Shown one piece after another: positions 5,899-54,179 of a stretch of DNA of 57,069 bases. The notes beneath the pieces are model-generated. The model saw only the letters and a program-made list of their open reading frames with translations, was not told the origin of the DNA and did no database searches. Each line of letters opens with the position of its first letter. The first letter of the stretch is position 1. The DNA is taken from positions 1 through 57,069 of the forward strand of contig NZ_JAGHQU010000018.1 in assembly GCF_017744135.1 (NCBI RefSeq), given 5' to 3'. The position numbers and the translations under genes were made by a program. The DNA comes from Endozoicomonas sp. G2_2 (GTDB taxonomy: Bacteria; Pseudomonadota; Gammaproteobacteria; Nevskiales; Salinisphaeraceae).

Positions 5899-6143
5899 TG
5901 CTCCGGATTCACACCTCCCGGACCGGCTCGTATAACCGGGTCATCATGTGGCGAGCCATTCGAAACCGGCGCCTCTTTCAGGCCCAGCGCCACGGCGACG
6001 CGATACGACTCCCCACGGCGTGCTGCGCTCCGCCCGGATAACACCGCATAGACGGTCTGGCGCGTGAAGCCCCTCGCGTCGGCCCACTCGCCAATAGCGA
6101 CGCCATTGCGCACAAACCACTGCCGCGCCTGCTCTAGGTTCAT
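5895..6143 (-). CDS. small HTH DNA-binding protein next to tnsA
   Basis: An 82-residue protein. Residues 10-50 form an Xre-like helix-turn-helix (VAIGEWADARGFTRQTVYAV), followed by LSGRSAARRGESYRVAVALG, a signature of short phage/plasmid DNA-binding proteins. The C-terminal 25 residues are Gly/Pro-rich and probably disordered. It reads in the same direction as tnsABC and away from tniQ, so it may regulate both. Xre-type regulators are known beside some Tn7-like elements, so this role is inferred from position. Confidence 0.7.
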   Translation of the reverse strand: MNLEQARQWFVRNGVAIGEWADARGFTRQTVYAVLSGRSAARRGESYRVAVALGLKEAPVSNGSPHDDPVIRAGPGGVNPEH

Positions 6144-6346
6144 TCAACTTTAATAACCCATACGACCCTACAAGGCAACAAAATTTCGTATATTTTCGAA
6201 CTGATTTATAAGTTTTTGTAAAAGCTGATATATCTAGTTCTATTCTCGCGCGCGCAGCGTGTGCGCTGTGGCGGCCGTCACAAATCGCGCGATTCACCGG
6301 CCAGCAACCAGTATCCGTCGAAGCCCCGACGCGCTATAACAGGACA
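6144..6346. promoter_or_regulatory. divergent promoter region, xre/tniQ
   Basis: This is a 200-bp gap between divergently transcribed genes. It contains an A+T-rich block (about 6160-6245) such as TTTCGTATATTTTCG, in strong contrast to the GC-rich surroundings. It should hold the promoters for the HTH gene (leftward) and tniQ (rightward). I cannot fix individual -35/-10 pairs, and no terminal inverted repeat of the transposon is obvious here. Confidence 0.4.
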
Positions 6347-8128: not shown

Positions 8129-8313
8129 AGCGCCGGCTGTGACGGCTTTAGAGCCAAGGCCGTTCTCCCATTCGTTCGAATATCAGCGCTTAGTTGCCGG
8201 GTTTGACGCCATTGCCGCAGACGGTTGCGGCCCCTCATCGATGAGGTACGTCGCACTTCCACAAGCGCGCTCACGCCCTTCTCGATCTCTACCGCGGGCT
8301 TTGTGAACCGAGT

Positions 8314-9531
8314 CTAAGCGGTATCAAAATGATCGTCTGGTAGCGTCGGGCGCGCGTCCGACACGATTCTCTGCGCGCACTGAACTAGTGGGAATTTGCT
8401 GCTTTGGCGGATCAGAGACTCAACGCAGTCGTAAGAGATCTGATGGCGCCGGCATGCGTCGTACAGAGACTGTCCATCGTAGAAATCGAGCACGGCGGTC
8501 ATAAGGCTAGCGGTCGCCAGACCTGCCAGATTCGGTGCGCCGCGACGCTGGAGCTGTCCAGCTACGACGACCCGACTTTTTGCCAGAACGAGTGCGGTAT
8601 GACTGTAATTGCCATGACACTCGTAATACGCACGCATGAGCGCATTGGAAGGCACGCTATTATCAGTGCGAGCACTGCTCGCAGGGCTATCTTGGCGAAA
8701 ACACTGCGCCGCTTTATCAACATGATCAAACAAGACGGTCGACAACAGACATAGTCGTGGAAGCCCGCAATCTACGCCTAGTAGCGCGCGTTCCAATGCT
8801 TCGCCGACGTCGCATTTCCGCCCGTCGATCGCTGCTAACAAAGCCTCGATCTCTTGAGCATCACTCCGTTCTTGGACGTACCGAGCAAACGGCACGACAG
8901 CGAATTGCTTGCCCTTATGGCGCCTAGCGATCTCGACCGCGCGGTGTCGGAGCCGCGCCAGCGCGGTCTTGCCATCCACTTTAGCGGGGAGCCTGCAGGC
9001 CAAGGTTCTCAGTAATGCGGCGTACCGCATCGTAATACACGCGCGAGAAACGCTATGGTGCGCGCCGTGATCGATAACCGGCGGACCCGTTAATGGCGAC
9101 GCCCGGGTTACCGAAAGCTGACACTCATGTTCGACGCAAACTTGTACACCCGGTGCTTGATGAGGGGCTCTCCAGTACGCGAATCCAAACTCGGAAAGGT
9201 CCTGCTCGAGGCAGGTAGTACAAAATCGATAAACACCTAGCTTAGAAGCGACCACGTCAGCGCCTAGTGTCAACGTGGACAGATCTTTGTCATTGGAGGC
9301 GCGCCTTAGGAAATTGGCGCAGGTATGATCGACCAATAGCCGAGTAACGGACGTCCCAAACCCATCAGCCACCGCAGTAATCGATGGATCGACCGTTGGA
9401 AACAATCGCCTGAATAGCGGTTGCACAGAAGGCCGCTCAGGAACAGGCAGTCCATTTAAGCGGGCCATACGGCCCAAGGCGCCCGTGAATAGTTCCTCCG
9501 GCAGTAACCGCGGCACGATCAAACTGGTCAT
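8314..9531 (-). CDS. second, divergent TniQ-family protein
   Basis: A 405-residue protein with a TniQ-type N-terminus (LLPEELFTGALGRMARLNGL) and a zinc finger C104-T-T-C107 ... FAYWRAPHQAPGVQVCVEH with C132 and H135. The C-terminal part has helical, HTH-like segments (YSHTALVLAKSRVVVAGQL). It is only distantly similar to the 593-residue TniQ and is shorter, nearer the size of accessory or CRISPR-associated TniQ proteins. It converges with that gene and is translationally coupled to the upstream HTH gene by a 4-base overlap at 9528-9531. It is probably a second target-selection subunit. No CRISPR genes are present. Confidence 0.8.
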   Translation of the reverse strand: MTSLIVPRLLPEELFTGALGRMARLNGLPVPERPSVQPLFRRLFPTVDPSITAVADGFGTSVTRLLVDHTCANFLRRASNDKDLSTLTLGADVVASKLGVYRFCTTCLEQDLSEFGFAYWRAPHQAPGVQVCVEHECQLSVTRASPLTGPPVIDHGAHHSVSRACITMRYAALLRTLACRLPAKVDGKTALARLRHRAVEIARRHKGKQFAVVPFARYVQERSDAQEIEALLAAIDGRKCDVGEALERALLGVDCGLPRLCLLSTVLFDHVDKAAQCFRQDSPASSARTDNSVPSNALMRAYYECHGNYSHTALVLAKSRVVVAGQLQRRGAPNLAGLATASLMTAVLDFYDGQSLYDACRRHQISYDCVESLIRQSSKFPLVQCAQRIVSDARPTLPDDHFDTA

Positions 9532-15585: not shown

Positions 15586-16168
15586 CGTTTAGAGAGCGAG
15601 GCCGAACGCCGGATATGTCCCGCGCGAGGCAGAGAAGGCGACGACAGTCTCGCTGAACGTTTGCCATCGTAGTAAGACGGTGCGGCCCCGATAAGACCGC
15701 TATGGCGAATTCAGTTATGAGCTACGTTTATAACTTGGTAGTTCATGTTGTGCGGTCACGGCGCGTCACCCGATTACGTTCATCGACTCGTGTGCGCATT
15801 GAGCCGGCACGTACAAGACAAAATGTCAGGCACGCGTAAGGGAAGCGGCTTCGCAGACAATACGCACGTCGGCAATTTCAAGTACAACTCGCGCCGAGTC
15901 TGGTGGGCAGCCCCGAGTTCGCCACTACGTGACCCGCCAGCGCAATGAGAATGAGGCCGTCGCAGGTCGCGAAACAGAGCAGATACGTGCGCAGGCCCGC
16001 GACGAAGCGCAGCAACATGTCGCGGCACAAGAGCGCGCCCATGAACGCATCCATGCGGCGGAGATGGAATCAAAGGGCCTGGCAGAGTCGATCAAGGTCG
16101 TCGAAGGTGAACGTGACCATCAGATCGAAAAGCTCGCGGCGATCTCGCAGGAGTTGGAAAGTAACCGG

Positions 16169-17728
16169 TCATTCCCCGACGTTATTGCCAACGCGATCGA
16201 TATCAGATTGCATGGGATTGTCGGCGAAGTGGTCTTTCCATAGCCGCGGGGTCAGTTCGGCCACCCGACTGGCCGGATGCACGCCCACGCGCTGGAGCAC
16301 GTCGACCAGATAAGTGTAGGGATCGACGCCGTGCAGCCGGCAGGTGCTGATCAGGCTCTGGATGATGCCGACGTGTTCGGCGCCGACCTCGGACCAGCAG
16401 AACAGCCAGTTGCGCCGCCCCATCGGGATCGGACGCAGTCCGCGCTCCAGATGATTCGTGTCGATCGGCACATCCGGATCGGTCAAAAAGACCCCGAGCG
16501 CGCCCCGGCGCTCGAGCGCATAGGCGACGGCCTTGGCCAGCGGATGTTTCGGCTCCAGATCCAGACGCTGGCACTGCACATCGCACCAGCGCCAGAAGGC
16601 GCGCACCGCGGGTTCGCTGTGCTGCGAGCGCGCCGTTTGCTTAGCCAGGCCTTCGAGGCGTTTGTCTCGGATCTCGGCTTCGACCCGATAGATCTCGCCG
16701 ATCAGCGCCAGCGCCTGCTGGGCCTGCGGATCACTGTCCAGCGCGCGTTCGAAGTATCGTCGGGTATGCGCCCAGCACTGGGCGTGGGTCACGCCCGGGC
16801 GGTTGTCGGCATAGCGCGCATACGCGCCGTAGCCGTCGGTGATCAGCGTGCCGGTAAAATGATCGGCCAGCGTGGCTTCGATATGACTTCGTGCGCGCGT
16901 CGCGGCAAACGTGAAGCTGATCTCGTCAGCGTCGCCATACAGCGGCCAGAAGTAGGCGGCCTTGAGTTGGCCGGCGCCGGCGCGCCCGGCCTTGATGGGT
17001 GTTTCGTCCATGGCCAGAACCCGGCTTTCGAGCACGTGCTCCAGCTGCGCGGCATGGATCGGCGACAGCAAGGCCGCGGTGCGACCGACCAGCTGGGTGA
17101 GCGTCGCGCGCGCCAGCTGGATGCCGCCGGCGGCCAGACGCTGATGCTGGCGATACAGCGGGATATGGAACGCGAACTTATCGACCAGCATCCCGGCCAG
17201 GAAGCTGGCGTCGGCCAGACTGCCGGTGAAGATCGCGCCGGGTACGGGCGTGGTCTGCGGCGTGGCGCTATTCCGCGGCTTGATCACCGGGGCCCGGTAT
17301 TCCAGTACTTCGTAACTGGCACGCCGCTGGGCCAGGCGGAAGGTGCTGTGGGTGGCGATGACTTCGCCGTCTTCGAGGCCTTCGGGGGGTGCAACGTCGA
17401 TCACGCGCACGGGCACGGAATCGTCAAAGCGTAGGCCGGTGTCGTTAACCGCGCCATTGCGTGTTTTCTTGCGGCGTGTGATCTCGACGGCTTCGGTTGC
17501 CGGCGGCGCCGGCGTATCCTCGATCAGGCCCGTAAACAGGCTGGCCTGGACCGCCGGATCGATTTCGACGCGCTTTTCCGACTTGGCGCCGAACAGCTGA
17601 CGCTTGAACCAGTCAAGCTGGTGCTGGGTGGCTTCAAGCTGTGATTCGACCGCGGTCAGACGTTCACGCAGCGCGGCCATATCCGCGAGCGCATCGTCGT
17701 ATTGCTGTGCCGGAACGGTCGCGGTCAA
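16169..17728 (-). CDS. tnpC: IS66 transposase TnpC (copy 1)
   Basis: A 519-residue DDE transposase of IS66. The N-terminal leucine-zipper region is followed by the IS66 zinc-finger/HTH region (LDWFKRQLFGAKSEKR). The catalytic core has VLAMDETPIKAG, TLITDGYGAYARY and THAQCWAHTRRYFERAL. The C-terminal domain has DTNHLERGLRPIPMGRRNWL, and the final SRVAELTPRLWKDHF is typical of IS66. Full length. The last gene of the tnpABC operon. Confidence 0.95.
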   Translation of the reverse strand: MTATVPAQQYDDALADMAALRERLTAVESQLEATQHQLDWFKRQLFGAKSEKRVEIDPAVQASLFTGLIEDTPAPPATEAVEITRRKKTRNGAVNDTGLRFDDSVPVRVIDVAPPEGLEDGEVIATHSTFRLAQRRASYEVLEYRAPVIKPRNSATPQTTPVPGAIFTGSLADASFLAGMLVDKFAFHIPLYRQHQRLAAGGIQLARATLTQLVGRTAALLSPIHAAQLEHVLESRVLAMDETPIKAGRAGAGQLKAAYFWPLYGDADEISFTFAATRARSHIEATLADHFTGTLITDGYGAYARYADNRPGVTHAQCWAHTRRYFERALDSDPQAQQALALIGEIYRVEAEIRDKRLEGLAKQTARSQHSEPAVRAFWRWCDVQCQRLDLEPKHPLAKAVAYALERRGALGVFLTDPDVPIDTNHLERGLRPIPMGRRNWLFCWSEVGAEHVGIIQSLISTCRLHGVDPYTYLVDVLQRVGVHPASRVAELTPRLWKDHFADNPMQSDIDRVGNNVGE

Positions 17729-17760
17729 ACGCCTGATTCCTCATCGGTTTCAAGTCATTA

Positions 17761-18123
17761 TTATACCCGATTCAGTGCCCTTGAAACGCCCGGATGCCAA
17801 CGTTTGCGGTGTTTTTTGATCACCAGATCCAGGCCTTCGATCAGCCCCTCAAAGGCGGTGTGCGATAGCGCTACGGCCGGCGATGACGCCGTGCGGTTGA
17901 TGCCGAAGCGGCCGGCTTCCAGACGCTTACTCCAGACACAATAACCGCCCGCCTCGAAGTACAGGCATTTGAGCTGCGTACGCCGACGATTGACGAAGAC
18001 AAAGCCCTGGCCGCTCAGCGGATCGCTGCCGAGTTCCCGACGCACCATCGCCGCCAGCCCGTCATACGAGCGACGCATGTCGGTCGGCTGGGTACACAGC
18101 CACAGCGTGGCCGGCGTTCTCAT
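17761..18123 (-). CDS. tnpB: IS66 accessory protein TnpB (copy 1)
   Basis: 120 residues from the ATG that overlaps the tnpA stop (ATGA, 18120-18123). IS66 Orf2 signatures: CTQPTDMRRSYDGLAAMV, LSGQGFVFVNRRRTQLKCLY and YCVWSKRLEAGRF. It is needed for IS66 transposition by an unclear mechanism. It has no relation to the RNA-guided TnpB nucleases despite the name. Confidence 0.93.
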   Translation of the reverse strand: MRTPATLWLCTQPTDMRRSYDGLAAMVRRELGSDPLSGQGFVFVNRRRTQLKCLYFEAGGYCVWSKRLEAGRFGINRTASSPAVALSHTAFEGLIEGLDLVIKKHRKRWHPGVSRALNRV

Positions 18124-18404
18124 GGACGACGCAGGCGCAGGCATACGCCGTCGCCCAGATCCAGTTCGATCGTCCAGCCGCTGTCGGTATTCCCCGGCTC
18201 ATCGGCCAGCGGGGCAAACAGGGCGGACGGTGTCGATACAGGCGCCTGACTCGTCCGCAGACGCCGCTTCCAGTGTTGAAATGAGCTTTTGGACAGACCG
18301 CGCTCGGCGCAGAAGGCGACCTGGCTCTGGCCGCTCGCGGCTTGGGCATCAATCAGCTGCTGCCATTGTTCGGGCGTGTGTTTCTGGCGCGGCGAATGCG
18401 ACAT
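18120..18404 (-). CDS. tnpA: IS66 accessory protein TnpA (copy 1)
   Basis: About 94 residues starting MSHSPRQKHTPEQWQQLIDA. It has a helix-turn-helix (SGQSQVAFCAERGLSKSSFQ) and the acidic C-terminus WTIELDLGDGVCLRLRRP of IS66 Orf1. It probably binds the IS ends. It is translationally coupled to tnpB. Confidence 0.9.
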   Translation of the reverse strand: MSHSPRQKHTPEQWQQLIDAQAASGQSQVAFCAERGLSKSSFQHWKRRLRTSQAPVSTPSALFAPLADEPGNTDSGWTIELDLGDGVCLRLRRP

Positions 18405-18768
18405 GGCGATGACTCTCGGGGTGATGGCGGTGAGAGTCACCATAGCTAGCGCGTACTCAGGCGAGAATAACGTCTTCGTTTAACCGCTTACGTTGGAAAC
18501 GGCGTTGACCCGCCGCGACGAGGTCACGGCACAGCTGGAGATGTGCGTGGCCGAACGTGCGACCGCGCAGACGCTGGCCACGGAGCGTCAGCGCATAATT
18601 GACCGGCTGGAAAAGGAACGCGCCGCGGCCGCGCGGCGAGCATCAAGGAAACATACGTGAGCATGAGTCCGATACGTTCGCTGAAATCCGCAACTGTGTT
18701 TGGCCCGATTTTATCGCCCGCGTCTGGCCGGTCGGACCTCTGATAGAGCTGTTATTTTCTCTCAGGTA

Positions 18769-28033: not shown

Positions 28034-28360
28034 AGTTGCTTGACCACTGAATGCTTCTGACCAATTGCGATCCTAAACAGAAATTTACGCTTCGGTCTGC
28101 TCCAGCCATTTCGAGTGCATCTTCCACCTACTGACCTTCTTTCGAAAATCAGATGATAGCCGGCTTGACAGCGGCCCGTGCACGCGGACGCATTGAGGCC
28201 GTCTTACGGCGCTATCCAAAATCGATAAGGCGGTAGCCGCCGCTTCAATAAAAGGACCAATTATCACGATGACCCAGACAGCCGGACGTCTCGACTCTGC
28301 CATCTTGACATTACACCGCCATCTTCCTGGCGTTCGAAAGCTGTTTAACGCCTTAGTAGC
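28034..28360. other. 330-bp segment between MITE and IS66 copy 2
   Basis: No gene or structure that I can support. The right edge is the 8-bp target TTAGTAGC (28353-28360) of the IS66 insertion. Before the insertion this DNA continued directly into the end of the E2-E1-JAB gene. Confidence 0.4.
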
Positions 28361-28368
28361 GTAACCGG

Positions 28369-29928
28369 TCATTCCCCGACGTTATTGCCAACGCGATCGA
28401 TATCAGATTGCATGGGATTGTCGGCGAAGTGGTCTTTCCATAGCCGCGGGGTCAGTTCGGCCACCCGACTGGCCGGATGCACGCCCACGCGCTGGAGCAC
28501 GTCGACCAGATAAGTGTAGGGATCGACGCCGTGCAGCCGGCAGGTGCTGATCAGGCTCTGGATGATGCCGACGTGTTCGGCGCCGACCTCGGACCAGCAG
28601 AACAGCCAGTTGCGCCGCCCCATCGGGATCGGACGCAGTCCGCGCTCCAGATGATTCGTGTCGATCGGCACATCCGGATCGGTCAAAAAGACCCCGAGCG
28701 CGCCCCGGCGCTCGAGCGCATAGGCGACGGCCTTGGCCAGCGGATGTTTCGGCTCCAGATCCAGACGCTGGCACTGCACATCGCACCAGCGCCAGAAGGC
28801 GCGCACCGCGGGTTCGCTGTGCTGCGAGCGCGCCGTTTGCTTAGCCAGGCCTTCGAGGCGTTTGTCTCGGATCTCGGCTTCGACCCGATAGATCTCGCCG
28901 ATCAGCGCCAGCGCCTGCTGGGCCTGCGGATCACTGTCCAGCGCGCGTTCGAAGTATCGTCGGGTATGCGCCCAGCACTGGGCGTGGGTCACGCCCGGGC
29001 GGTTGTCGGCATAGCGCGCATACGCGCCGTAGCCGTCGGTGATCAGCGTGCCGGTAAAATGATCGGCCAGCGTGGCTTCGATATGACTTCGTGCGCGCGT
29101 CGCGGCAAACGTGAAGCTGATCTCGTCAGCGTCGCCATACAGCGGCCAGAAGTAGGCGGCCTTGAGTTGGCCGGCGCCGGCGCGCCCGGCCTTGATGGGT
29201 GTTTCGTCCATGGCCAGAACCCGGCTTTCGAGCACGTGCTCCAGCTGCGCGGCATGGATCGGCGACAGCAAGGCCGCGGTGCGACCGACCAGCTGGGTGA
29301 GCGTCGCGCGCGCCAGCTGGATGCCGCCGGCGGCCAGACGCTGATGCTGGCGATACAGCGGGATATGGAACGCGAACTTATCGACCAGCATCCCGGCCAG
29401 GAAGCTGGCGTCGGCCAGACTGCCGGTGAAGATCGCGCCGGGTACGGGCGTGGTCTGCGGCGTGGCGCTATTCCGCGGCTTGATCACCGGGGCCCGGTAT
29501 TCCAGTACTTCGTAACTGGCACGCCGCTGGGCCAGGCGGAAGGTGCTGTGGGTGGCGATGACTTCGCCGTCTTCGAGGCCTTCGGGGGGTGCAACGTCGA
29601 TCACGCGCACGGGCACGGAATCGTCAAAGCGTAGGCCGGTGTCGTTAACCGCGCCATTGCGTGTTTTCTTGCGGCGTGTGATCTCGACGGCTTCGGTTGC
29701 CGGCGGCGCCGGCGTATCCTCGATCAGGCCCGTAAACAGGCTGGCCTGGACCGCCGGATCGATTTCGACGCGCTTTTCCGACTTGGCGCCGAACAGCTGA
29801 CGCTTGAACCAGTCAAGCTGGTGCTGGGTGGCTTCAAGCTGTGATTCGACCGCGGTCAGACGTTCACGCAGCGCGGCCATATCCGCGAGCGCATCGTCGT
29901 ATTGCTGTGCCGGAACGGTCGCGGTCAA
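28369..29928 (-). CDS. tnpC: IS66 transposase TnpC (copy 2)
   Basis: Identical in translation to the copy at 16169: 519 residues, DDE core with VLAMDETPIKAG and TLITDGYGAYARY. Intact. The long frame on the opposite strand (28477-29634) is a shadow caused by GC-rich codon bias. Confidence 0.95.
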   Translation of the reverse strand: MTATVPAQQYDDALADMAALRERLTAVESQLEATQHQLDWFKRQLFGAKSEKRVEIDPAVQASLFTGLIEDTPAPPATEAVEITRRKKTRNGAVNDTGLRFDDSVPVRVIDVAPPEGLEDGEVIATHSTFRLAQRRASYEVLEYRAPVIKPRNSATPQTTPVPGAIFTGSLADASFLAGMLVDKFAFHIPLYRQHQRLAAGGIQLARATLTQLVGRTAALLSPIHAAQLEHVLESRVLAMDETPIKAGRAGAGQLKAAYFWPLYGDADEISFTFAATRARSHIEATLADHFTGTLITDGYGAYARYADNRPGVTHAQCWAHTRRYFERALDSDPQAQQALALIGEIYRVEAEIRDKRLEGLAKQTARSQHSEPAVRAFWRWCDVQCQRLDLEPKHPLAKAVAYALERRGALGVFLTDPDVPIDTNHLERGLRPIPMGRRNWLFCWSEVGAEHVGIIQSLISTCRLHGVDPYTYLVDVLQRVGVHPASRVAELTPRLWKDHFADNPMQSDIDRVGNNVGE

Positions 29929-29960
29929 ACGCCTGATTCCTCATCGGTTTCAAGTCATTA

Positions 29961-30323
29961 TTATACCCGATTCAGTGCCCTTGAAACGCCCGGATGCCAA
30001 CGTTTGCGGTGTTTTTTGATCACCAGATCCAGGCCTTCGATCAGCCCCTCAAAGGCGGTGTGCGATAGCGCTACGGCCGGCGATGACGCCGTGCGGTTGA
30101 TGCCGAAGCGGCCGGCTTCCAGACGCTTACTCCAGACACAATAACCGCCCGCCTCGAAGTACAGGCATTTGAGCTGCGTACGCCGACGATTGACGAAGAC
30201 AAAGCCCTGGCCGCTCAGCGGATCGCTGCCGAGTTCCCGACGCACCATCGCCGCCAGCCCGTCATACGAGCGACGCATGTCGGTCGGCTGGGTACACAGC
30301 CACAGCGTGGCCGGCGTTCTCAT
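29961..30323 (-). CDS. tnpB: IS66 accessory protein TnpB (copy 2)
   Basis: Identical to the copy at 17761; ATGA overlap with tnpA (30320-30323). 120 residues with the TDMRRSYDGLAAMV motif of IS66 Orf2. Confidence 0.93.
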   Translation of the reverse strand: MRTPATLWLCTQPTDMRRSYDGLAAMVRRELGSDPLSGQGFVFVNRRRTQLKCLYFEAGGYCVWSKRLEAGRFGINRTASSPAVALSHTAFEGLIEGLDLVIKKHRKRWHPGVSRALNRV

Positions 30324-30604
30324 GGACGACGCAGGCGCAGGCATACGCCGTCGCCCAGATCCAGTTCGATCGTCCAGCCGCTGTCGGTATTCCCCGGCTC
30401 ATCGGCCAGCGGGGCAAACAGGGCGGACGGTGTCGATACAGGCGCCTGACTCGTCCGCAGACGCCGCTTCCAGTGTTGAAATGAGCTTTTGGACAGACCG
30501 CGCTCGGCGCAGAAGGCGACCTGGCTCTGGCCGCTCGCGGCTTGGGCATCAATCAGCTGCTGCCATTGTTCGGGCGTGTGTTTCTGGCGCGGCGAATGCG
30601 ACAT
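30320..30604 (-). CDS. tnpA: IS66 accessory protein TnpA (copy 2)
   Basis: Identical to the copy at 18120; about 94 residues with the HTH AFCAERGLSKSSFQHW. Confidence 0.9.
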   Translation of the reverse strand: MSHSPRQKHTPEQWQQLIDAQAASGQSQVAFCAERGLSKSSFQHWKRRLRTSQAPVSTPSALFAPLADEPGNTDSGWTIELDLGDGVCLRLRRP

Positions 30605-30700
30605 GGCGATGACTCTCGGGGTGATGGCGGTGAGAGTCACCATAGCTAGCGCGTACTCAGGCGAGAATAACGTCTTCGTTTAACCGCTTACTTAGTAGCG

Positions 30701-33007
30701 TTAGCCTTCTTTCACGATGGCTGTATAGCCGTCGGGCAGACATATTAGCCCGAGTGCTGGCGACTGGATACGATCGCACAGGGTCTCGACGGTTTCATGA
30801 TCGATGGCAGAAGCGCCGCTGTTGCTTAGATGGCTATGCCAAGTCCCCACGCAATAGAGAGTATAACCACTCGACTCGGCATACTCTTCCAAAGCGCTTA
30901 CTAAGCCGCTCCGGCCTAAAATGAATCGCTCTCGCCGCCGTTGGGAGTCTTCGGGCGCATCCAGCACGTCGATGACGGTGATCGTACGGCGCAGACTGGA
31001 CAGTGCGCCAATCAATACGCCGCCAGTTTCCACGCTCGCATGACTTCCAACGTCTTCCTGTATCTTCTCGTGTGCCCGTGGAGATATTCGGATCTGCCAC
31101 TGGTCGTTATTTTCCGGCACGATGACCTTGAAAGGCTTAATCGATTCGCTGGCCCACGCCAAGCTCATGCCATCCTGGCTGGCTTGGCCTAAGTAAAGTT
31201 TACCCTGCTCTGGCAACCGATCAGTTCGCCACTCAATAAGTTTCTGCGACATGGCCGCCGCGAAGAGCGAGATACGGGCGTCGGACATGACGATTGTCGT
31301 CGTGCCGCACCCCTGCCCTACCGCTTGACGACTCATCTGTGATTCATGCTGAAGGAGAAGCTGCCGTAAGCCGTCGTCCGCGCGCGCGAGGGCGTACGCC
31401 TCAAGAGTTAAATCGGCGGTGTTCGGATTACGCTCCATCCCTTCCAACGTCAGAAGCCCAAGATGCCCCTGCCCGTAAAGTGCGCTCTCGATTATCCGGG
31501 CACGCAATTGTTCCTCGGGAATCGCTGCCAACGCTTCACGAACCGCCAGCGATGCGGTTGAATTCAGAATTACAGAGGTATTTCGCGGCACGGAGCGACG
31601 TAACGCCTGTCGGTCATATCGCCAGCCGACAGCGTCTTGCCGTATTGCCGTAGCTGGCTGATCGAGGCCAGCTAGAACCGCGCACATGATATCGGCCTTC
31701 GGTGACAGCCAAGTAAGGCCGTAATCGTCGACTGGAAGTGTCAACGCGTGGCGAGCACTGTTGTGAGGCGACAGGCATTTTTTGTCGATAACCACCTGGG
31801 GCGCAAGGCCAGCACGGCCAAGATGCGTAGCGATCTTAGAGCCGACGCTGCCAGCACCAACTTGGACCAACGGATATATGTCCGCTGGCAGCGCAACGCC
31901 CGATAATTCGGCAAGCAGGTTTTTAGAGATCGCATCGTGTAATGCCACTGGGTAAACAGGAACCTCGATTGAGGGCTCTGATGTGAACTCCTTATCGACC
32001 TGGAGAAAGTACGGGATAAGTTCGATGTCGGAATTCGACCCAAGCACCGTGATAGGGCGTCTGGCCACGAGAATGATGAATAACGGCACCTTGCCCAAGT
32101 CTTGAGCTCGCTTTGAAAGCCGTCGTGACACCAATGAGAGAGCCTCCATTAGCTCTGTGCGGCAGCCATAGTCCGCAGCTCGCCCTGCTAAAGTCTGAAG
32201 ATCGGCAACAGTTTCGGGCTCGTAGCGATCACAAATAATCGGCGCGCCAGTTGATGCTTTCGCCGCAAAAACGAGGACGGTGAGGGTCCGTCCGTGGGTG
32301 ATAGCAGATTGAGCTTGTACAGGCGATTCGACGATCCAGTCCGCCGTCCGCTGATCCAACGGCAAGGCGTTGTCAGTCACGCGGGCCATTAGCAGGAAGC
32401 CTTTATGAGGACGATTGCCTTTCTCCGGCACACACCGCATATAGCCAGTTTCTAAAAAGCTATAACCACCACGGGACTTTATGCGGTTCCGCAAGGCCGC
32501 CCTGTCCAAAACCACTATGTCTTCCAGACGATCACGTCGAACCGGCTCCCAACCGTGGTTAGGATCAATAAGCGTGTCTTTGGCCGCTCGGTGCAGCCAA
32601 TCGACGACCTGATTCAGCAGGCCGTCGATACCTCGGTGGGCAATGAGCTCGCGAGGATCGCCCTCAAAATAACAGGGCTCGGGAGCCTCTTGCTCGGCTC
32701 CAGGTTGGATGTGCGCTAAATTGCGATTAAATTCAGGTCGTAGCGTGACCAGCGGCGCATATTGAGGATACGTCGCTGAAAACATCAGGCGGATAGGCTC
32801 TTCCAGCTTCACGCCGCTTGGACTTTGGCCCTGGGCTCGCCATTGCGTTGGTAAGTTGACTTGTATTAAACAATCAACCTGCGGGAATTCTTTAGTCGAA
32901 TCAGCGTGCACGTTCGCACGAATAACATGAGGGTGTTGCCGTATCCTCGCTAACGCGGCTTGAATAAGGGTCGGGAGCTCCTCTTCAATAACCTGAGCTT
33001 CAGCCAT
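30701..33007 (-). CDS. E2-E1-JAB triple-domain ubiquitin-like conjugation/deconjugation protein
   Basis: 768 residues from ATG 33007, which overlaps the end of the MBL gene (stop 33000-33002). N-terminal E2/UBC-like domain (about 10-150): LMFSATYPQYAPLVTLRPEF, LAHIQPG, then a likely catalytic Cys112 in PEPCYFEGD and the closing helix LLNQVVDWLHRAAKDTL. The middle E1/ThiF-like domain (about 375-600) has the nucleotide loop VQVGAGSVGSKIATHLGRAG, VVIDKKCLSPHNSARH (Asp408, Asn416, Arg419) and a possible thioester Cys567 in GQGCGTTTIV. C-terminal JAB/JAMM peptidase (about 640-768): ETGGVLIG (Glu660) and GTWHSHLSNSGASAIDHET, i.e. HxH-x6-S-x2-D. The family pattern is that E1 and E2 attach a Ubl or target and JAB trims or removes it. 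An anti-phage role is inferred from comparison with CBASS Cap2/Cap3 and Bil systems. Confidence 0.88.
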   Translation of the reverse strand: MAEAQVIEEELPTLIQAALARIRQHPHVIRANVHADSTKEFPQVDCLIQVNLPTQWRAQGQSPSGVKLEEPIRLMFSATYPQYAPLVTLRPEFNRNLAHIQPGAEQEAPEPCYFEGDPRELIAHRGIDGLLNQVVDWLHRAAKDTLIDPNHGWEPVRRDRLEDIVVLDRAALRNRIKSRGGYSFLETGYMRCVPEKGNRPHKGFLLMARVTDNALPLDQRTADWIVESPVQAQSAITHGRTLTVLVFAAKASTGAPIICDRYEPETVADLQTLAGRAADYGCRTELMEALSLVSRRLSKRAQDLGKVPLFIILVARRPITVLGSNSDIELIPYFLQVDKEFTSEPSIEVPVYPVALHDAISKNLLAELSGVALPADIYPLVQVGAGSVGSKIATHLGRAGLAPQVVIDKKCLSPHNSARHALTLPVDDYGLTWLSPKADIMCAVLAGLDQPATAIRQDAVGWRYDRQALRRSVPRNTSVILNSTASLAVREALAAIPEEQLRARIIESALYGQGHLGLLTLEGMERNPNTADLTLEAYALARADDGLRQLLLQHESQMSRQAVGQGCGTTTIVMSDARISLFAAAMSQKLIEWRTDRLPEQGKLYLGQASQDGMSLAWASESIKPFKVIVPENNDQWQIRISPRAHEKIQEDVGSHASVETGGVLIGALSSLRRTITVIDVLDAPEDSQRRRERFILGRSGLVSALEEYAESSGYTLYCVGTWHSHLSNSGASAIDHETVETLCDRIQSPALGLICLPDGYTAIVKEG

Positions 33008-34151
33008 GCGGCAACGGATCTCCTCGTCCGGCATCGCTGGCAATAATCGCCGGTGCCGCGGCTTTTACCGTTGATAAGCAAAGTCCATCGCGATCGACCT
33101 CGAACTCTATAGGCGCAGGCTTGCTCGGCTTCGGCGTTTCACCGGTGCATTTAAACACGCCGGAAACCGGATCAAGAATGTCTTTGTACTCCCGCTTAGC
33201 GCGAGTACAAGGCGGGTCATTATCGTCATCAGTCACTGGTTTGCTGCTGGCGATAATGTGAGCCCCGGACAAAGCCTGACCTAATGCCTCACGTGCATCA
33301 CGGCTTACCTTCGCCCGTTCGCCCCAGTCTCTCCAGCTATCGCGTGATAGCGAGCGCCAAGAGCAGTGGTGCGGTGCTTGCAGAAGATCATACTCGAGCC
33401 ACTCGGTATGATTCGCATGTCGCTTCCACATGCGCTCCCAAATACCAACCCGGGCATCGCCACCAGTTAAGAACCGGCATTCGCCTCCGCTCGCTCGCAG
33501 GTGAAAGCGGAGGACGACGCTGGAATCGTTCTTCGTTAGCGCCGCTTCCTCCTCCTGCAGATCAGGTCCCGGCAACGGTCCGAGCAGACGTGCGGATAGC
33601 CCGGCGTCTCGCTGCCCGTTCACCTGCGAGATCACTTGATCAATCTCGACAAGAATATCCGTAAGATCATTGGTCTTGCCGTGCTCATCATGCCCGAGAA
33701 TCAGAATGCGATCGCCATCACCCACGGTGGCGCCGGCTTCTCGATAGCGTTCGACTCGTCGCTTCGCTTCACGATTAAACGCTCTTGCGTCATCGCATAG
33801 CAGATTAGAAGACGAAGCGCGACGGAAAATGAGCGGCGAGGACCAGACTTCGCGAATCAGTATCTTTCCCTGTCGATACTCCTCAGGCGCGCCCAAATGA
33901 AAGTGCTTCTGCAGTCCTCGACAGTGGTCTTGATCAGGATGACTGAGCAAAAAAGCATCGACATAGGGGTGGTCTTGACCATCACGCTTCAAGCGTTCTC
34001 GTAAGTCGCCAGCGACATCACAGGTCTCATCGTCAGGATCATCAGCAGCTTCGCGAATATTGATGTCGATCAAGATGGTCCGCCCGCTGTCCAGCGTAAT
34101 CAGCGTCATATCGCCATCGCCGACGGGGAAGAAAGTGATTTTCGCAGCCAT
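33000..34151 (-). CDS. MBL-fold (ComEC-type) hydrolase coupled to the E2-E1-JAB gene
   Basis: 383 residues from MAAKITFFPVGDGDMTLITL, with GAGAGG upstream; an earlier Met at 34202 is less likely. Metallo-beta-lactamase motifs: LLSHPDQDHCRGLQKHFHL (HxDxDH, the ComEC-type variant, about residues 71-76), FLTGGDARVG and LQAPHHCSW. Domains of this branch are often nucleases or phosphodiesterases. It is the first gene of the operon, divergent from the WYL regulator, and overlaps the fusion gene by 8 bp. It is a candidate effector or processing enzyme. The extreme C-terminus does not end in Gly-Gly, so it is not an obvious Ubl. Confidence 0.82.
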   Translation of the reverse strand: MAAKITFFPVGDGDMTLITLDSGRTILIDINIREAADDPDDETCDVAGDLRERLKRDGQDHPYVDAFLLSHPDQDHCRGLQKHFHLGAPEEYRQGKILIREVWSSPLIFRRASSSNLLCDDARAFNREAKRRVERYREAGATVGDGDRILILGHDEHGKTNDLTDILVEIDQVISQVNGQRDAGLSARLLGPLPGPDLQEEEAALTKNDSSVVLRFHLRASGGECRFLTGGDARVGIWERMWKRHANHTEWLEYDLLQAPHHCSWRSLSRDSWRDWGERAKVSRDAREALGQALSGAHIIASSKPVTDDDNDPPCTRAKREYKDILDPVSGVFKCTGETPKPSKPAPIEFEVDRDGLCLSTVKAAAPAIIASDAGRGDPLPHG

Positions 34152-34253
34152 CGTTAATACCTCTCGTGCCGCGGAGCCAATTGCCAGAGCCCCAATTACC
34201 AATTACTCTATACATAAAGAAACTAATAGGTCAACTAACTATAGGTACCGCGT
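34152..34253. promoter_or_regulatory. divergent promoter region of the conjugation locus
   Basis: 102 bp between the MBL gene (leftward) and the WYL regulator (rightward), with an A+T-rich centre. It carries related sequences AACTAATAGGTC and AACTAACTATAGGTAC about 15 bp apart and the direct repeat CCAATTA CCAATTA (34193-34206). These are plausible operators for the WYL protein. TATACAT (34209-34215) could be a -10 element. Confidence 0.4.
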
Positions 34254-35129
34254 ATGGAAGCTAAGCATTCCTCCGGCTCGAATATGCGATGGAGCGTTGA
34301 GCGACGCCTTGAGTTCATAGAGTTCCGTCTTTATTGGGAAGGCCGCATTAATCGTTCGGATGTGATGAGTTTGTTTGGTATTTCTGCGCCGCAGGCCTCC
34401 GCAGATTTAAAGCGCTATCAAGAACTTGCGCCCGACAACATGCACTACAGCGGAACTCGTAAATGCTATCTGGCTAATCCAGACTTCAGCCCCGTAATCT
34501 CGCGGGCGAACGCACACGAATACTTGGCGCGTCTACGCTTATTGGGCGAGGGATTACATGGGAACGACGAAAGCTGGCTAGGAGCCGTGCCGGCTTTCGA
34601 TTCGGTTCGGCCACCTACCCGCCAAGTCGAACCACAGAAGCTTCGACGCGTCTTGGATGCAATCCAAGGCCGGCAAGCAATGGAGATTCGTTATCAATCG
34701 ATGTCGCGACCTGAGCCAATTTGGCGGTGGATCAACCCCCACGCTCTCGCATTCGATGGGTTCCGATGGCATACCCGTGCGTGGTGCCAGCTTAGACAAC
34801 AGTTCCAGGACTTCGTGTTTGCACGGATGCTCGACATCGGCGACCTGGCAGCGGTCGAGGGCGATATCCCACAAGACCTTCAATGGCAGCGATTCATTGT
34901 GATGCGGATCGGCCCTCATCCCGAGCTGCAGCCTTCCGCGAGAAGAGCTATTGAACTCGACTACGGCATGACCAGCGGAGAAATGGCGATACGTACGAGG
35001 TTGGCATTGAGCTACTACCTAGAGCGGCAGCTCGGTCTAGACTTTGAAGCGCCGAAAGTCTCGCCCCAGCGCCAGCAAGTCGTACTCCTGAACCGTGAAG
35101 AGATCGATGAGGCGCGAAATACATTTTGA
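34254..35129 (+). CDS. WYL-domain transcriptional regulator (CapW/BrxR-like)
   Basis: 291 residues; an alternative start at 34284 gives MRWSVERRLEFIEFRLYWEG, the usual opening of this family. The N-terminal winged helix (RINRSDVMSLFGISAPQASA) is followed by the WYL domain (AMEIRYQSMSRPEP, INPHALAFDGFRWHTRAWC) and a C-terminal dimerisation part (TRLALSYYLERQLGLDF). Homologues CapW and BrxR repress CBASS and BREX operons and release on phage or damage signals. Its divergent placement implies control of the MBL/E2-E1-JAB operon. Confidence 0.88.
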   Translation: MEAKHSSGSNMRWSVERRLEFIEFRLYWEGRINRSDVMSLFGISAPQASADLKRYQELAPDNMHYSGTRKCYLANPDFSPVISRANAHEYLARLRLLGEGLHGNDESWLGAVPAFDSVRPPTRQVEPQKLRRVLDAIQGRQAMEIRYQSMSRPEPIWRWINPHALAFDGFRWHTRAWCQLRQQFQDFVFARMLDIGDLAAVEGDIPQDLQWQRFIVMRIGPHPELQPSARRAIELDYGMTSGEMAIRTRLALSYYLERQLGLDFEAPKVSPQRQQVVLLNREEIDEARNTF

Positions 35130-35182
35130 AAAAATCCGCTACGGGTGCGCGCTTACTCGAGCATCAATAACTAGGACTTGGC

Positions 35183-35809
35183 ATGGCCACAGACTTGAAG
35201 CGTGAGAATGCTGCGGCGTTAAGCACTATATTATTGGCGACCTTCGCTTCAGTAGCTTTGATAGAAGTCGGGCTCGGTTGGCTGCTCAATAACGCAGGCG
35301 AGCTATCTGAGATAGGGATCGTGGCGCTAGGGACCGTTCTAGCTGGCCTTCTAGCCAACATTGTTCCAGCACGGCTAAAGCACGCGATAGTTTTCGCGGG
35401 GCACCGCTACGCGCTACCTGGACACCGCTGTAATCGACTCTGTGCTAGGGATGCGAGAATCGACCTTTCCTTAGCAACTGAACGCTGGCCGCGACTGTTT
35501 TCTGAACAAATGCCGGATAGCGAGCGCAACCCGATATGGTATCGAGAGATATATAAGCCAATAAAAGATGATCCGGTTGTTAGGCAGGGCCATCGTGCCT
35601 TTCTGCTTTATCGTGACGCTGCTGCCGGTGTGACGCTGCTATTTTTGGCTGCGCTCATCTTTCAGCTCTGTAGCAATTGGATTCCGGCTTGGGGCGTGAG
35701 TATTTGGTCACTCTCGTTTCTATTCGCTGAAGACTTGGCGTTATTGACAGCGGCCCGAATTGCAGGGAATCGCATGACAGTAAATGCGGTAGCACTAGCC
35801 TTGGATTAG
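35183..35809 (+). CDS. multi-pass membrane protein, possible effector
   Basis: 208 residues. TM1 is about 14-36 (ILLATFASVALIEVGLGWLL) and TM2 about 43-62 (IGIVALGTVLAGLLANIVPA). A cytoplasmic central region follows with the conserved-looking pattern HRYALPGHRCNRLCARDARI ... PIWYREIYKPIKDDP. TM3 is about 148-170 (AGVTLLFLAALIFQLC), with a possible TM4 near the end. Two N-terminal and two C-terminal spans around a soluble core resemble membrane-pore effectors in defence loci. It is co-directional with the WYL gene, 53 bp apart. The effector role is inference. Confidence 0.65.
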   Translation: MATDLKRENAAALSTILLATFASVALIEVGLGWLLNNAGELSEIGIVALGTVLAGLLANIVPARLKHAIVFAGHRYALPGHRCNRLCARDARIDLSLATERWPRLFSEQMPDSERNPIWYREIYKPIKDDPVVRQGHRAFLLYRDAAAGVTLLFLAALIFQLCSNWIPAWGVSIWSLSFLFAEDLALLTAARIAGNRMTVNAVALALD

Positions 35810-37122: not shown

Positions 37123-37998
37123 TTAACCCGCGACCACCGGCGGCTCCTTTCGCTGATCAAGATATTCGGCAAGGCGTGAACGTAATTCTGGATCATCGAG
37201 CGTCGCAGATTGCGCCTTGCCCGGAAAAATCTTGGAAGCGACATCGGCTTTGAACTGCTCTGCAGCACTAACGACGTCTGAGGCTACACTTAAATAGCGC
37301 CGACTGTGGCGCGGCTGGAAGTCGCTAAATAAACCGAACAAATCGTGAAATACCTGAACCTCACCGTCACAGTCGGGCCCCGCGCCGATGCCTATTGTCG
37401 GAATACGCAGCTGCTGAGTGACCGCGTCAGCTATTTCGTTGGGCACGAGCTCTAAAACGATGGCGAATGCACCCGCATCCTCCAGTGCTTTGGCATCCTC
37501 AATGAGCTTGACCGCGGCCTCGAAAGAACGCCCCTGAACTCTCGGCCCACCGAGCGTATGAGTGGATTGCGGGGTATAACCAAGATGGCCGCAGACGGGA
37601 ATACCGATCTGCACGAGACGCTTGACCGTGCCCGCTATTTCAACGCCGCCTTCGATCTTGATCCCGCCGATGCCCGTGTCCTGCATTAAACGGCCCGCGT
37701 TGCGCATGGCATCTTCATGGCTTACCTGGTAAGTCATGAACGGTAGGTCCGCAATAACAAGCGCTTGGGGCGCACCGCGCTTCACCATGCGGCTGTGATA
37801 AATCACGTCGTCCAATGTGACGGCCAAAGTGGATTCCTCGCCTCGTACAACCATGCCGAGTGTGTCGCCTACCAGAATCAAGGGAATACCGGCCGCCTCG
37901 CACATCTGGGCCATGGTGTAATCGTATGCAGTCAGCGAAGCAATTCGCTCTCCTTTTTCTTTCATTAGCAGCAAGCGAGACGGGGTGATTGATTTCAT
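37123..37998 (-). CDS. panB: 3-methyl-2-oxobutanoate hydroxymethyltransferase
   Basis: About 291 residues from MKSITPSRLLLMKEKGERIA. Converts alpha-ketoisovalerate and methylene-THF to ketopantoate, the first step of pantothenate synthesis, in the cytoplasm. Signatures: SLTAYDYTMAQMCEAAGI, LVGDTLGMVVRGEESTL (metal-binding Asp), LPFMTYQ, IKIEGG, GHLGYTPQS, VLELVPNEIAD and TIGIGAGPDCDGEVQVFHDL. Full length (family 260-300). panC is not beside it. It is divergent from a LysR gene with paired repeats between them, so it is probably controlled by that regulator. Confidence 0.95.
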   Translation of the reverse strand: MKSITPSRLLLMKEKGERIASLTAYDYTMAQMCEAAGIPLILVGDTLGMVVRGEESTLAVTLDDVIYHSRMVKRGAPQALVIADLPFMTYQVSHEDAMRNAGRLMQDTGIGGIKIEGGVEIAGTVKRLVQIGIPVCGHLGYTPQSTHTLGGPRVQGRSFEAAVKLIEDAKALEDAGAFAIVLELVPNEIADAVTQQLRIPTIGIGAGPDCDGEVQVFHDLFGLFSDFQPRHSRRYLSVASDVVSAAEQFKADVASKIFPGKAQSATLDDPELRSRLAEYLDQRKEPPVVAG

Positions 37999-38054
37999 CA
38001 AGCTATCCTCGAATATCGTGTGAAGCCGGTAGCCGCAACACTCCATTAAGAGAA

Positions 38055-49331: not shown

Positions 49332-50345
49332 ATGCGTCACGTAGAGGAAGTCTCACGCGGGCTGGCCTGTGGTTGTCGCTGTACCGACTGCAAAAGGCCG
49401 CTGATCGCACGCAAAGGCGAGGTTCGTGTCGAACACTTCGCCCATCAGGCCGGCGCGAACTGTCCTGCCGACCTGGCGCTCTGGCATGCCGCACGCGAAG
49501 TGCTGCTGGAGACTGCCGCAACGCACGCCGAGACCATGGTGCTGCCCAAGGCCGACCAAGCGCGCCTGGAACCGGCGCCTAAGAACGCGGCTGTGGATCC
49601 GACATCCGCGCAGCAAACGCTGACGACGCGGATACCGATCACACTCGATGCGCGCGTGCATGATGTCGTATTTACCGGTCTGGGCCATCGCCGTGATGCA
49701 CACAGGCACGCGACTGACTGTGCCGGTGCGCTGGTAATCAATCTGCGCACCCTGTCGCCGCAGATCACACGCGGCGCACTCAAGGACGCCATCCTGCGTC
49801 GTGCGCCGCGCACCTGGACGGCGGCACGCCAGTGTGCCTCAAGCCGCGCCCAGTCAACCGAGCAGCAGCCCCACGACCAGCGCGAACTCGCCGCCCACGC
49901 TGAACGCATCTGCGACCAACTCACCCAGCCAGGTCACGCGGGAGCCGAATCACTGCCCTGGCAGGCCCTGCGCGCACGCGCACTCAACAAGCTCGAAGCC
50001 AGCGATGAGCAATGGCGAAGGGCGACGATTGAGCCGCGTATACACGATATTCAACGTCCTGGGACGGCCATCAGCGCGACCGCATACGAATACGCGGCCC
50101 GTGTGGGCACCAAAACGGGCACGGCACGGGCATTGGTGGTTATCGAACTCGGCGAGGACACTCTCAAGGCGGAAAACAACCGGCAGACCCGCTACAAGAC
50201 CCCGACGCTCGTGATTCATGCACCCATGAGCAACCAGGGACACCCCGGTCGCGTCACCCACATGCATTGGCTGCGAATCGATCATTGGCAGAGGGCGCTC
50301 GACGAGCGCTATCAGCCCTTTCAGACCGAGGAAGACACCCCATGA
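49332..50345 (+). CDS. CoiA-like protein 1
   Basis: 337 residues from ATG 49332. N-terminal CoiA-type zinc/nuclease-associated motif: CGCRCTDCKRPLIARKGEVR, HFAH (35-38), then C44 and LWHAAREVLLE. The middle segment ITLDARVHDVVF ... LVINLRTLSPQITRGALKDA replaces the E-x-D-L-S pattern of the paralogue. The C-terminal domain ends TPTLVIHAP ... HMHWLRIDHWQRALDERY. CoiA proteins act in DNA uptake or recombination in Gram-positives; this proteobacterial branch is uncharacterised. Coding-like sequence (NLTGWALDAAGV) continues upstream without a usable start codon and no ribosome-binding site precedes the ATG, so the true start is uncertain. Its stop overlaps a small ORF (ATGA, 50342). Confidence 0.75.
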   Translation: MRHVEEVSRGLACGCRCTDCKRPLIARKGEVRVEHFAHQAGANCPADLALWHAAREVLLETAATHAETMVLPKADQARLEPAPKNAAVDPTSAQQTLTTRIPITLDARVHDVVFTGLGHRRDAHRHATDCAGALVINLRTLSPQITRGALKDAILRRAPRTWTAARQCASSRAQSTEQQPHDQRELAAHAERICDQLTQPGHAGAESLPWQALRARALNKLEASDEQWRRATIEPRIHDIQRPGTAISATAYEYAARVGTKTGTARALVVIELGEDTLKAENNRQTRYKTPTLVIHAPMSNQGHPGRVTHMHWLRIDHWQRALDERYQPFQTEEDTP

Positions 50346-53195: not shown

Positions 53196-54179
53196 ATGCG
53201 ACATATAGAGGAGGTGGCACGCGGCCTGGCGTGCGGTTGCTTCTGCGTCGAATGCCAGCGACAGCTGGTCGCCCGTAAGGGCGACATCCGCGTCGCACAC
53301 TTCGCCCATCGCGCGAATACGGGTTGCGAACCTGGCGTGGCACTCTGGCATGCCGCACGCGAGATTCTGTTAGATGCGGCGGCCGCGGGCACACACACGT
53401 TCGCGATACCCACGGGCAATGACAAGCGACTCGGACTGACGCCCTCGAGCCAGCCCCGTGCCCAACGGCCAGCACCTGCGATCACGATCACGCTCAACGG
53501 CCGGGCGCATCAGGTGCTTCTGCGCGGCCTGTCCAATCGACGCAAACCCCGAGAACATGCAGCAACGACTGAGAAGAGACTCGAAATCGATCTGAGCGGC
53601 ATTTCGCCTTTCGAAAGCCGTCAGAGCCTGCGTGACACCATTCTTTACCGGGCACCCCGCCGGTGGCAATCATGCGAGAAACAACCGGCACCCCGCGGAT
53701 CGGCGCCAGAGCCGGCAGACCGGACACAGCCCACGGCTGCAACGCGGCAACGAGCCCAGCTGATCTGTGATGAGCTCACGCACCCCACGGCCGCCAGACA
53801 CCGGGCCCTGCCCTGGCCTTTCCTGCGCGCGCGCGGAAGGAACAAGCTGGAAGCGACAGATGCGCAATGGCGACGCGATACGGTCCAGCCCCGAATCGTT
53901 GAGCTCGTGCGCCCAGGCATCGCTCGCGATGCATCAACGTTCGAATACGCAGCCCGGGCGGCTACCCCCACCGGCGACGCATCCGTGTTGGTCGTCATCG
54001 TGCTCGGGTTAGACACCACCCAAGACGAACTCGAGCGCCGTCGTCGGTATATCACCCCGACGCTCGTGGTCCACGCACCCGCCGATGCATACGCCCGCGA
54101 CAGATCCGTTCAGCACATGGAATGGCTCGGCATCGAGACCTGGCAGGCAGCGCTCGACCACCGCTATTGGGAACACTGA
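53196..54179 (+). CDS. CoiA-like protein 2
   Basis: 327 residues from ATG 53196, paralogue of the protein at 49332. CGCFCVECQRQLVARKGDIR, HFAH and LWHAAREILLD occupy the same positions. The middle carries KRLEIDLSGISPFESRQSLR and YRAPRRWQ, the E-x-D-L-S / AP..W pattern seen in CoiA-like proteins; the C-terminus is TPTLVVHAP ... MEWLGIETWQAALDHRY. Protein-like sequence conserved with the paralogue (NLTGWAVDSDG) precedes the ATG, back to a TGA at 53124, with no standard start codon. Likely nucleic-acid related; array D upstream suggests a shared unit. Confidence 0.75.
   Translation: MRHIEEVARGLACGCFCVECQRQLVARKGDIRVAHFAHRANTGCEPGVALWHAAREILLDAAAAGTHTFAIPTGNDKRLGLTPSSQPRAQRPAPAITITLNGRAHQVLLRGLSNRRKPREHAATTEKRLEIDLSGISPFESRQSLRDTILYRAPRRWQSCEKQPAPRGSAPEPADRTQPTAATRQRAQLICDELTHPTAARHRALPWPFLRARGRNKLEATDAQWRRDTVQPRIVELVRPGIARDASTFEYAARAATPTGDASVLVVIVLGLDTTQDELERRRRYITPTLVVHAPADAYARDRSVQHMEWLGIETWQAALDHRYWEH

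Follow-up and report, generated by a model that had tools for sequence, protein, structure and literature searches.

A complete 6A-MBL operon with a CapW-type regulator and a recurrent membrane partner in Endozoicomonas sp. G2_2

Positions 30701-35809 of the window, the whole 57,069-nucleotide stretch of Endozoicomonas sp. G2_2 (NZ_JAGHQU010000018.1) analysed here, hold four adjoining genes: cap2_3, a gene for a metallo-β-lactamase-fold (MBL) hydrolase, capW and a gene for a membrane protein. The operon is a complete member of the known 6A-MBL system, operon type 6a, and not an oddity in kind. The MBL proteins of this family carry a near-constant His-Gly at or close to their C-terminus, which parallels the tail of cGAS in type II CBASS (cyclic-oligonucleotide-based antiphage signalling system), and for this reason it is likely that the MBL itself is the protein attached by Cap2_3, through its own tail. 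The features are as follows, with residue numbers referring to the 768-residue form of Cap2_3.

30701..33007, minus strand: cap2_3, a 768-residue E2-E1-JAMM fusion, conjugation and deconjugation in one chain (NCBIfam NF058523)
32501..32947, minus strand: E2-like domain, residues 21-169, with Cys112 (codon 32672-32674) (Pfam PF14457 Prok-E2_A, 1.9e-24, above cut-off)
31193..31900, minus strand: E1/ThiF-like domain, about residues 370-605, with nucleotide loop 384-390 and Cys567 (Cap2 profile match and invariant residues; borders approximate)
30776..31114, minus strand: JAMM/JAB isopeptidase domain, about residues 632-744, with E660, H724, H726, S733 and D736 (PADLOC JAB, 1.4e-15)
33000..34151, minus strand: 6A-type MBL hydrolase, 383 residues (NCBIfam NF058524)
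33003..33065, minus strand: disordered C-terminal tail of the MBL, residues 363-383, ending Pro-His-Gly, a proposed conjugation tail (model confidence below 50; tail conservation)
33000..33007, minus strand: 8-nucleotide overlap of the MBL stop with the cap2_3 start (sequence)
34152..34253, no strand: divergent promoter region between MBL and capW (sequence scan; no convincing operator)
34254..35129, plus strand: capW, a helix-turn-helix (HTH)-WYL repressor of the CapW/BrxR family (phmmer against solved chains)
35183..35809, plus strand: 208-residue membrane protein with four hydrophobic segments ('mem' family), the proposed effector (phmmer to other 6A-MBL loci)

Identity of the operon

Operon type 6a was described in the 2006 survey of Iyer, Burroughs and Aravind as usually consisting of two genes, one for a triple-module E2-E1-JAB protein and one for a specialised MBL, and the order E2, E1, JAB within one chain in the window agrees with row 6a of that survey (PMC1779556, the parts on this operon type). 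The two proteins, their gene order and their domain order are also those of 6A-MBL as curated by NCBI. Cap2_3 matches NF058523 (6A-MBL_cap2_3) with an E-value of 2.3e-167 and 558 bits against a cut-off of 320, and the MBL matches NF058524 (6A-MBL_enzyme) with 1.6e-130 and 435 bits against a cut-off of 220, so that both curated cut-offs are passed by two adjacent genes. The 6A-MBL definitions seen name two genes, to which the neighbourhood in the window adds the CapW repressor and the membrane protein. As NCBI labels the matched pair anti-phage, the suggestion of a defence-type locus in an earlier sequence-only reading of this DNA is borne out at the level of family assignment.

As the two operon genes overlap by 8 nucleotides, translational coupling from the MBL to cap2_3 is plausible. 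The open reading frame (ORF) of the MBL covers 33000-34202, reaching back to a TTG at 34202, with a probable start at the ATG at 34151 behind GAGAGGT. For cap2_3 the start may be the ATG at 33007 (768 residues) or a TTG at 33043 (780 residues), and the NF058523 match spans residues 73-766 of the longer form.

The 2006 survey, in its section on these operons, leaves open what the conjugating enzyme of type 6a attaches and what the MBL does (PMC1779556). No later answer to these questions and no paper using the name 6A-MBL were found in the literature searched, with subscription journals and preprints mostly outside the search.

The Cap2_3 fusion

The sequence-only reading placed E2, ThiF/E1 and JAMM domains in a single polypeptide, and the Prok-E2_A, PADLOC and NCBIfam matches together with the invariant residues agree with this. 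The single-domain Pfam models for ThiF (0.015) and Prok-JAB (0.0057) stay below their cut-offs; the E1 and JAB assignment comes from PADLOC E1-E2 (2e-18), PADLOC JAB (1.4e-15) and the NCBIfam model. The catalytic residues are intact: in an alignment of the window protein with 18 relatives picked by the author, the most divergent being left out, C112, the G-x-G-S-x-G-S loop (384-390), C567, E660, H724, H726, S733 and D736 are invariant in 19 out of 19 sequences. When a profile of the fusion family (A1) is compared with solved structures, Cap2 is the best match (7to3, E-value 1.7e-12), over the E1 part, in line with the proposed kinship with Cap2; the profile with the JAMM part matches the peptidase chain 9ild (2.7e-5) and N11-like proteins (0.002). 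There is no separate Cap3, the JAMM domain being fused; the Cap3 model gives 19 bits against a cut-off of 200.

Several relatives depart from this arrangement. In L056:5969-9505 a patatin-like phospholipase (1.2e-18) is fused to the C-terminus of Cap2_3, giving a protein of 1178 residues. The close relatives of cap2_3 at L041 and L053 (G099, 43% identical, and G513) stand without an MBL, and at L041 an MBL-tail-like piece is read in frame ahead of cap2_3. The cap2_3 and MBL genes of an Acinetobacter soli plasmid (L115:292-3762) are annotated as fragments. A genome of the same genus (G003) has its own strongly diverged 6A operon (L054), with a cap2_3 of 25% identity over part of its length and a patatin-like gene upstream.

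The MBL hydrolase and its His-Gly tail

The metal-site residues H71, D73, D75, H76, D232, H261 and H262 are kept in all 52 non-redundant 6A MBLs. The structural model of the window MBL has a mean predicted local distance difference test score (pLDDT) of 85, with values below 50 confined to the loop 199-204 and the tail 363-383. Foldseek places the ComEC MBL domain first (9ic4, 3.2e-13), as expected from the ComEC-type assignment of the sequence-only reading, followed by further hydrolases of the MBL fold, among them PNGM-1, AIM-1, yeast PDE1, RNase J and PhnP; such fold matches of a predicted model do not decide between a nuclease and a phosphodiesterase.

Past residue 359 the tails of 6A MBLs are 20-41 residues long, variable, and rich in Ala, Gly and Ser, and yet their ends are near-constant. 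In a first set, a simple rule found an MBL at 68 of 81 loci, which with the window reduced to 44 non-redundant proteins (< 90% identity); His-Gly lies within the last nine residues in 42 of these and at the very end in 29. When the last 40 residues were shuffled over 2000 rounds, the same count averaged 1.6 and reached at most 7, compared with the 42 observed. A wider, profile-based set of 80 MBLs (52 non-redundant) gives Gly within the last nine residues in 52/52, His-Gly in 44/52, His-Gly or Ala-Gly in 49/52, and a final Gly in 35/52. The eight MBLs without His-Gly consist of five that end in RAG, TQG or TYG and three that have residues past a Gly.

The C-terminal Gly or Ala of CBASS cGAS makes a thioester with Cap2 and is conserved only alongside full-length Cap2 and Cap3, according to the sections of PMC10097602 on this residue. 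The sequence-only reading had listed the MBL among several guessed conjugation substrates; for this guess the His-Gly tail provides comparative support, and the role itself is still inferred. No account of the tail was found in the open-licence literature, a search mostly without subscription journals and preprints that leaves unpublished status unproven.

A membrane or patatin partner

The 208-residue protein of the window, noted as a multi-pass membrane protein in the sequence-only reading, contains four hydrophobic segments, and in a first phmmer search it was homologous to proteins of eight other 6A-MBL loci (6e-17 to 2e-8). This 'mem' family occurs at 11 of 53 loci, the window included. 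Its gene stands behind a WYL gene, as in the window, on plasmids of Acinetobacter ursingii and Acinetobacter soli, and next to a WYL gene in the opposite orientation on a plasmid of Xanthomonas citri.

The 53 loci are the non-redundant remainder of 81 loci with full-length cap2_3; among them a membrane or patatin partner recurs, and so do WYL or CapP-type regulators. Partner genes belong to five families, RARmem, mem and YEY (working names), DUF6338-like, and patatin. At 40/53 loci a partner gene lies just downstream of cap2_3 on either strand, at many loci with an overlap of a few bases at the cap2_3 stop, and at eight it lies on the regulator side only: the window, L111 and L112 (mem), L035, L097, L101 and L071 (RARmem), and L054 (patatin). 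This amounts to a gene beside the operon at 48 loci and, with the patatin fusion of L056, to a partner at 49/53. The five loci without a partner gene are L056 itself, L060, where the sequence ends 55 bases on, L041, where the MBL is lost, and L038 and L100. These counts suggest that the membrane protein is a regular partner of 6A-MBL; gene neighbourhood is what connects it with the MBL.

A second MBL family with the same membrane families as neighbours

A second ComEC-like MBL of about 356 residues was seen at the 6A loci L035 and L040 and in the search with the membrane protein. The four members tested match the PADLOC candidate PDC-M48B over their length. PDC-M48B resembles 6A-MBL in having a ComEC-like MBL with the same membrane families as neighbours, and it differs in that the MBL belongs to a distant family (best phmmer E-value between the two 4e-5), lacks the His-Gly tail and usually has no cap2_3 nearby. 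Among 17 non-redundant second MBLs none has His-Gly, one has a final Gly and two have a Gly in the last nine residues. No cap2_3 lies in the examined stretch at 13 of the 17 loci, five of these stretches reaching only about 1.5 kb to each side.

Membrane families known from 6A loci adjoin the second MBL at 14/17 loci (7 RARmem, 5 mem, 1 YEY and 1 DUF6338-like); L119, with an overlapping mem ORF next to the second MBL, is extra to these. Three loci (L108, L109, L113) were found via the mem protein and are biased in this respect. The ten found with the second MBL as query, namely five new matches (L117-L121) and five picked from 43 plasmid records (L122-L126), have a membrane protein of the same families at eight, or nine counting L119. 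A neighbour with at least two hydrophobic segments lies within 500 bp of 15/17 second MBLs, compared with 6/29 control ORFs from a subset of the loci. L108:3916-5618 and L109:3769-5627 are two-gene modules of a PDC-M48B MBL and a mem protein, with no cap2_3 in the examined stretch, and may be candidates for a stand-alone system. The DUF6338-like membrane protein beside the second MBL at L124:4592-5281 shows similarity to the PADLOC model of Csx27, an accessory protein of type VI-B CRISPR systems (1.2e-4).

Likewise, no report in the open-licence literature searched was found to describe the shared set of effectors or the likeness to the second MBL. The His-Gly tail of the MBL, the frequent membrane or patatin partner, and the same membrane families beside the second MBL appear to be new, as far as we are aware.

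Regulators

CapW of the window is a full-length homologue of CapW from S. maltophilia (7tb6, phmmer E-value 5.2e-73 over residues 6-286 of 291), the nearest solved chain, and also matches BrxR (7t8k, 3.5e-46), in line with the CapW/BrxR-like assignment made earlier; it is thus an HTH-WYL repressor gene divergent from an immune-type operon. Among the 53 loci a WYL regulator is found at 15 and a CapP-type peptidase at 10, never both, and neither was found at the other 28 by similarity to the seeds. The comparison with solved CapW or CapP covered one regulator of each type; the remaining regulators were assigned from their similarity to these and to several additional seeds. For the regulator pair of Methylocystis the nearest solved chains are CapP (1.2e-56) and 7t5u (1.3e-15), the latter listed as a helix-turn-helix protein, which we take to be CapH. 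Between the MBL gene and capW no clear operator was seen, only one 9-nucleotide imperfect palindrome, and 34100-34300 contains one 9-of-12 promoter-like match for the MBL side, with 0.4 expected. At four 6A loci (L032, L033, L086, L094) a gene with a nucleotidyltransferase domain lies behind the WYL gene.

Relation to CBASS, Bil and Bub

CBASS includes membrane-attacking and patatin effectors. Type II CBASS (CD-NTase, Cap2, Cap3 and effector) resembles the operon of the window in its E1-E2 enzyme, here a relative of Cap2, in its JAMM enzyme, and in having a partner enzyme with a C-terminal Gly (PMC10097602, sections on the cGAS tail), a feature borne here, by analogy, by the MBL. The regulators, CapW or CapH/CapP, are a further likeness, and the kinship of MBL operons with type II CBASS has already been published (both in the relevant sections of PMC13373217). 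Unlike type II CBASS, the operon has an MBL for the CD-NTase, and E1-E2 and JAMM are fused. With an MBL where CBASS has its CD-NTase, the locus does not belong to CBASS. In agreement with the sequence-only reading, no CD-NTase was detected in the four locus proteins or 20 flanking ORFs (Pfam at 1e-6), the other ORFs of the window lying outside the scan.

Bil systems, too, are immune-type operons with E1, E2 and JAMM activities. The same holds for Bub operons, in the part of PMC13373217 that describes them. Unlike in Bil and Bub, the enzymes of the window are fused in one chain, and no gene for a ubiquitin-like protein (Ubl) is recognised. The absence of a visible Ubl had also been noted earlier; no dedicated one appears in the scan of the four locus proteins and 20 flanking ORFs.

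A model of the system and its alternatives

The reading that we favour, and consider probable on comparative grounds, is a CBASS-like 6A-MBL immune system in which the MBL takes the place of the CD-NTase and a membrane protein is the effector, its substrate and chemistry being inferred. CapW would repress the operon until single-stranded DNA appears through DNA damage or infection, and on release of CapW MBL and Cap2_3 would be produced. The E1 domain would then adenylate the C-terminal Gly of the MBL, Cys567 and Cys112 would carry the MBL as a thioester, and the E2 domain would transfer it to lysine residues of its targets. The JAMM domain might trim residues past the Gly where these are present and might also take the MBL off again. 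Conjugation would prime the MBL, just as cGAS of type II CBASS is primed by Cap2. The primed MBL would in turn trigger the membrane protein, leading to damage of the inner membrane and an end to phage growth. The least certain parts of this proposal are the substrate that the MBL cuts and the switching-on of the membrane protein.

A number of observations weigh against this model. The anti-phage function of 6A-MBL is a label given by NCBI, and no paper behind it turned up in the literature searched. The relatives in the survey were chosen by Cap2_3 similarity and are not independent, and L038 and L100 have full-length cap2_3 and MBL with no recognised partner. When mem and RARmem were considered as homologues, no kinship was detectable (hhalign probability 6%), and the model of the mem protein is poor (pLDDT 67), with no credible fold match. 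A crude pattern scan saw no clear E1 cysteine motif in some divergent Cap2_3 proteins such as L052. ComEC as the nearest fold of the modelled MBL suggests a nuclease, for which a membrane partner would be unnecessary. As the two MBL families are only distantly related, the tail contrast is one between families and partly reflects ancestry; moreover, a 6A operon adjoins the second MBL at 4/17 loci (L035, L040, L047, L063), and one of the other 13, a Burkholderia arboris record, has a 6A operon far off in the same record.

Were the protein conjugated by Cap2_3 an unlinked Ubl such as ThiS or MoaD, an idea proposed for such operons in 2006 (PMC1779556, section 16), the MBL would be a target or an independent enzyme, and the ThiF and MoeB profiles do match the E1 domain, weakly and far below their cut-offs. 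The His-Gly tail kept in 6A MBLs and absent from the second MBL family argues against this, as does the lack of a Ubl among the window proteins scanned, a screen that did not extend to Ubl folds beside other loci, and we regard an unlinked Ubl as improbable. We give similarly little credence to the membrane protein being a passenger of a two-protein system in which the MBL is a nuclease effector aimed by conjugation. The NCBIfam entries seen name just two components and ComEC is the closest fold, as such a system would lead one to expect; against it stand the partner at 48/53 loci and in one fusion, the overlap of a few bases with the cap2_3 stop at many of these loci, and the same membrane families adjoining the second MBL. 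A stress or addiction module, in which the membrane protein is a toxin restrained by MBL and conjugation with phage defence secondary, is unlikely, if not to be dismissed lightly: the regulators are of the DNA-damage type, and Bub operons share such regulators with protection not demonstrated for them (PMC13373217, in its account of Bub). The anti-phage label of NCBI and restriction-modification genes near three plasmid loci speak against such a module.

Beyond the single operon, MBL and membrane-protein modules may make up a separate immune family running parallel to CBASS, a tentative idea about which some doubt is in order. Its two-gene grade would consist of an MBL of the PDC-M48B kind and a membrane effector, and its conjugation-primed grade of a 6A MBL, Cap2_3 and the same effectors or a patatin; in the latter a hydrolase without the ubiquitin fold would act as a ubiquitin-like modifier via its His-Gly tail, and its conjugate would control the membrane effector. 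The His-Gly tail, missing in the distant sister MBL, reduces the substrate question of 2006 to one residue. If true, the MBL would be another ubiquitin-like modifier without the ubiquitin fold besides cGAS, and the shared pool of membrane partners would tie 6A-MBL, an unnamed defence candidate and CBASS together by one logic.

Distribution and surroundings

The cap2_3 family exceeds its cut-off in 6 of 398 phylum-sample genomes and 7 of 369 class-sample genomes, the genome of the window being counted in both. A match at 1e-20 is present in 34 of 72,556 plasmid records (14 conjugative, 8 mobilizable, 12 non-mobilizable); the search of a phage collection gave no match and that of viral contigs one locus. 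6A-MBL is a rare, mobile immune-type operon. The sequence-only reading had called the fusion with an MBL partner unusual, which holds for its rarity and not for its kind, because type 6a was published in 2006 and is curated by NCBI. One flank gene of the locus occurs in 4/14 genomes of the genus (own included) and the other has only copies of 39-45% identity elsewhere; with flank genes this patchy or distantly matched, the surroundings look accessory.

The nearest neighbour, not part of the system, starts 1 nucleotide past the cap2_3 stop:

28361..30691, minus strand: IS66 element (TnpB_IS66, 1.3e-30)

It is flanked by an 8-bp target duplication, TTAGTAGC, at 28353-28360 and 30692-30699, and shares 100% identity along 2331 bp with a second copy, at 16161-18491. 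The identical copies and the target duplication indicate that the insertion is recent; none of the four genes is interrupted. The idea that IS66 displaced a third gene after cap2_3 was rejected: exact 8-bp duplications flank the element, the flank from 28352 down to 27871 has no recognisable third-gene ORF (by eye), and 8/53 loci have their partner on the regulator side only.

Elsewhere in the window, 597-9531 is the remains or part of a Tn7-like element, with an AAA_22 ATPase (597-1697), an IS481 transposase (3004-3954), TnsD/TniQ (6347-8128) and a second TniQ (8314-9531). Two proteins with CoiA N-terminal domains (49332-50345 and 53196-54179) lie on either side of a DUF945 protein. The gene at 37123-38046, presumably a second PanB-like gene, is 43% identical to a copy on contig C30 of the same genome.

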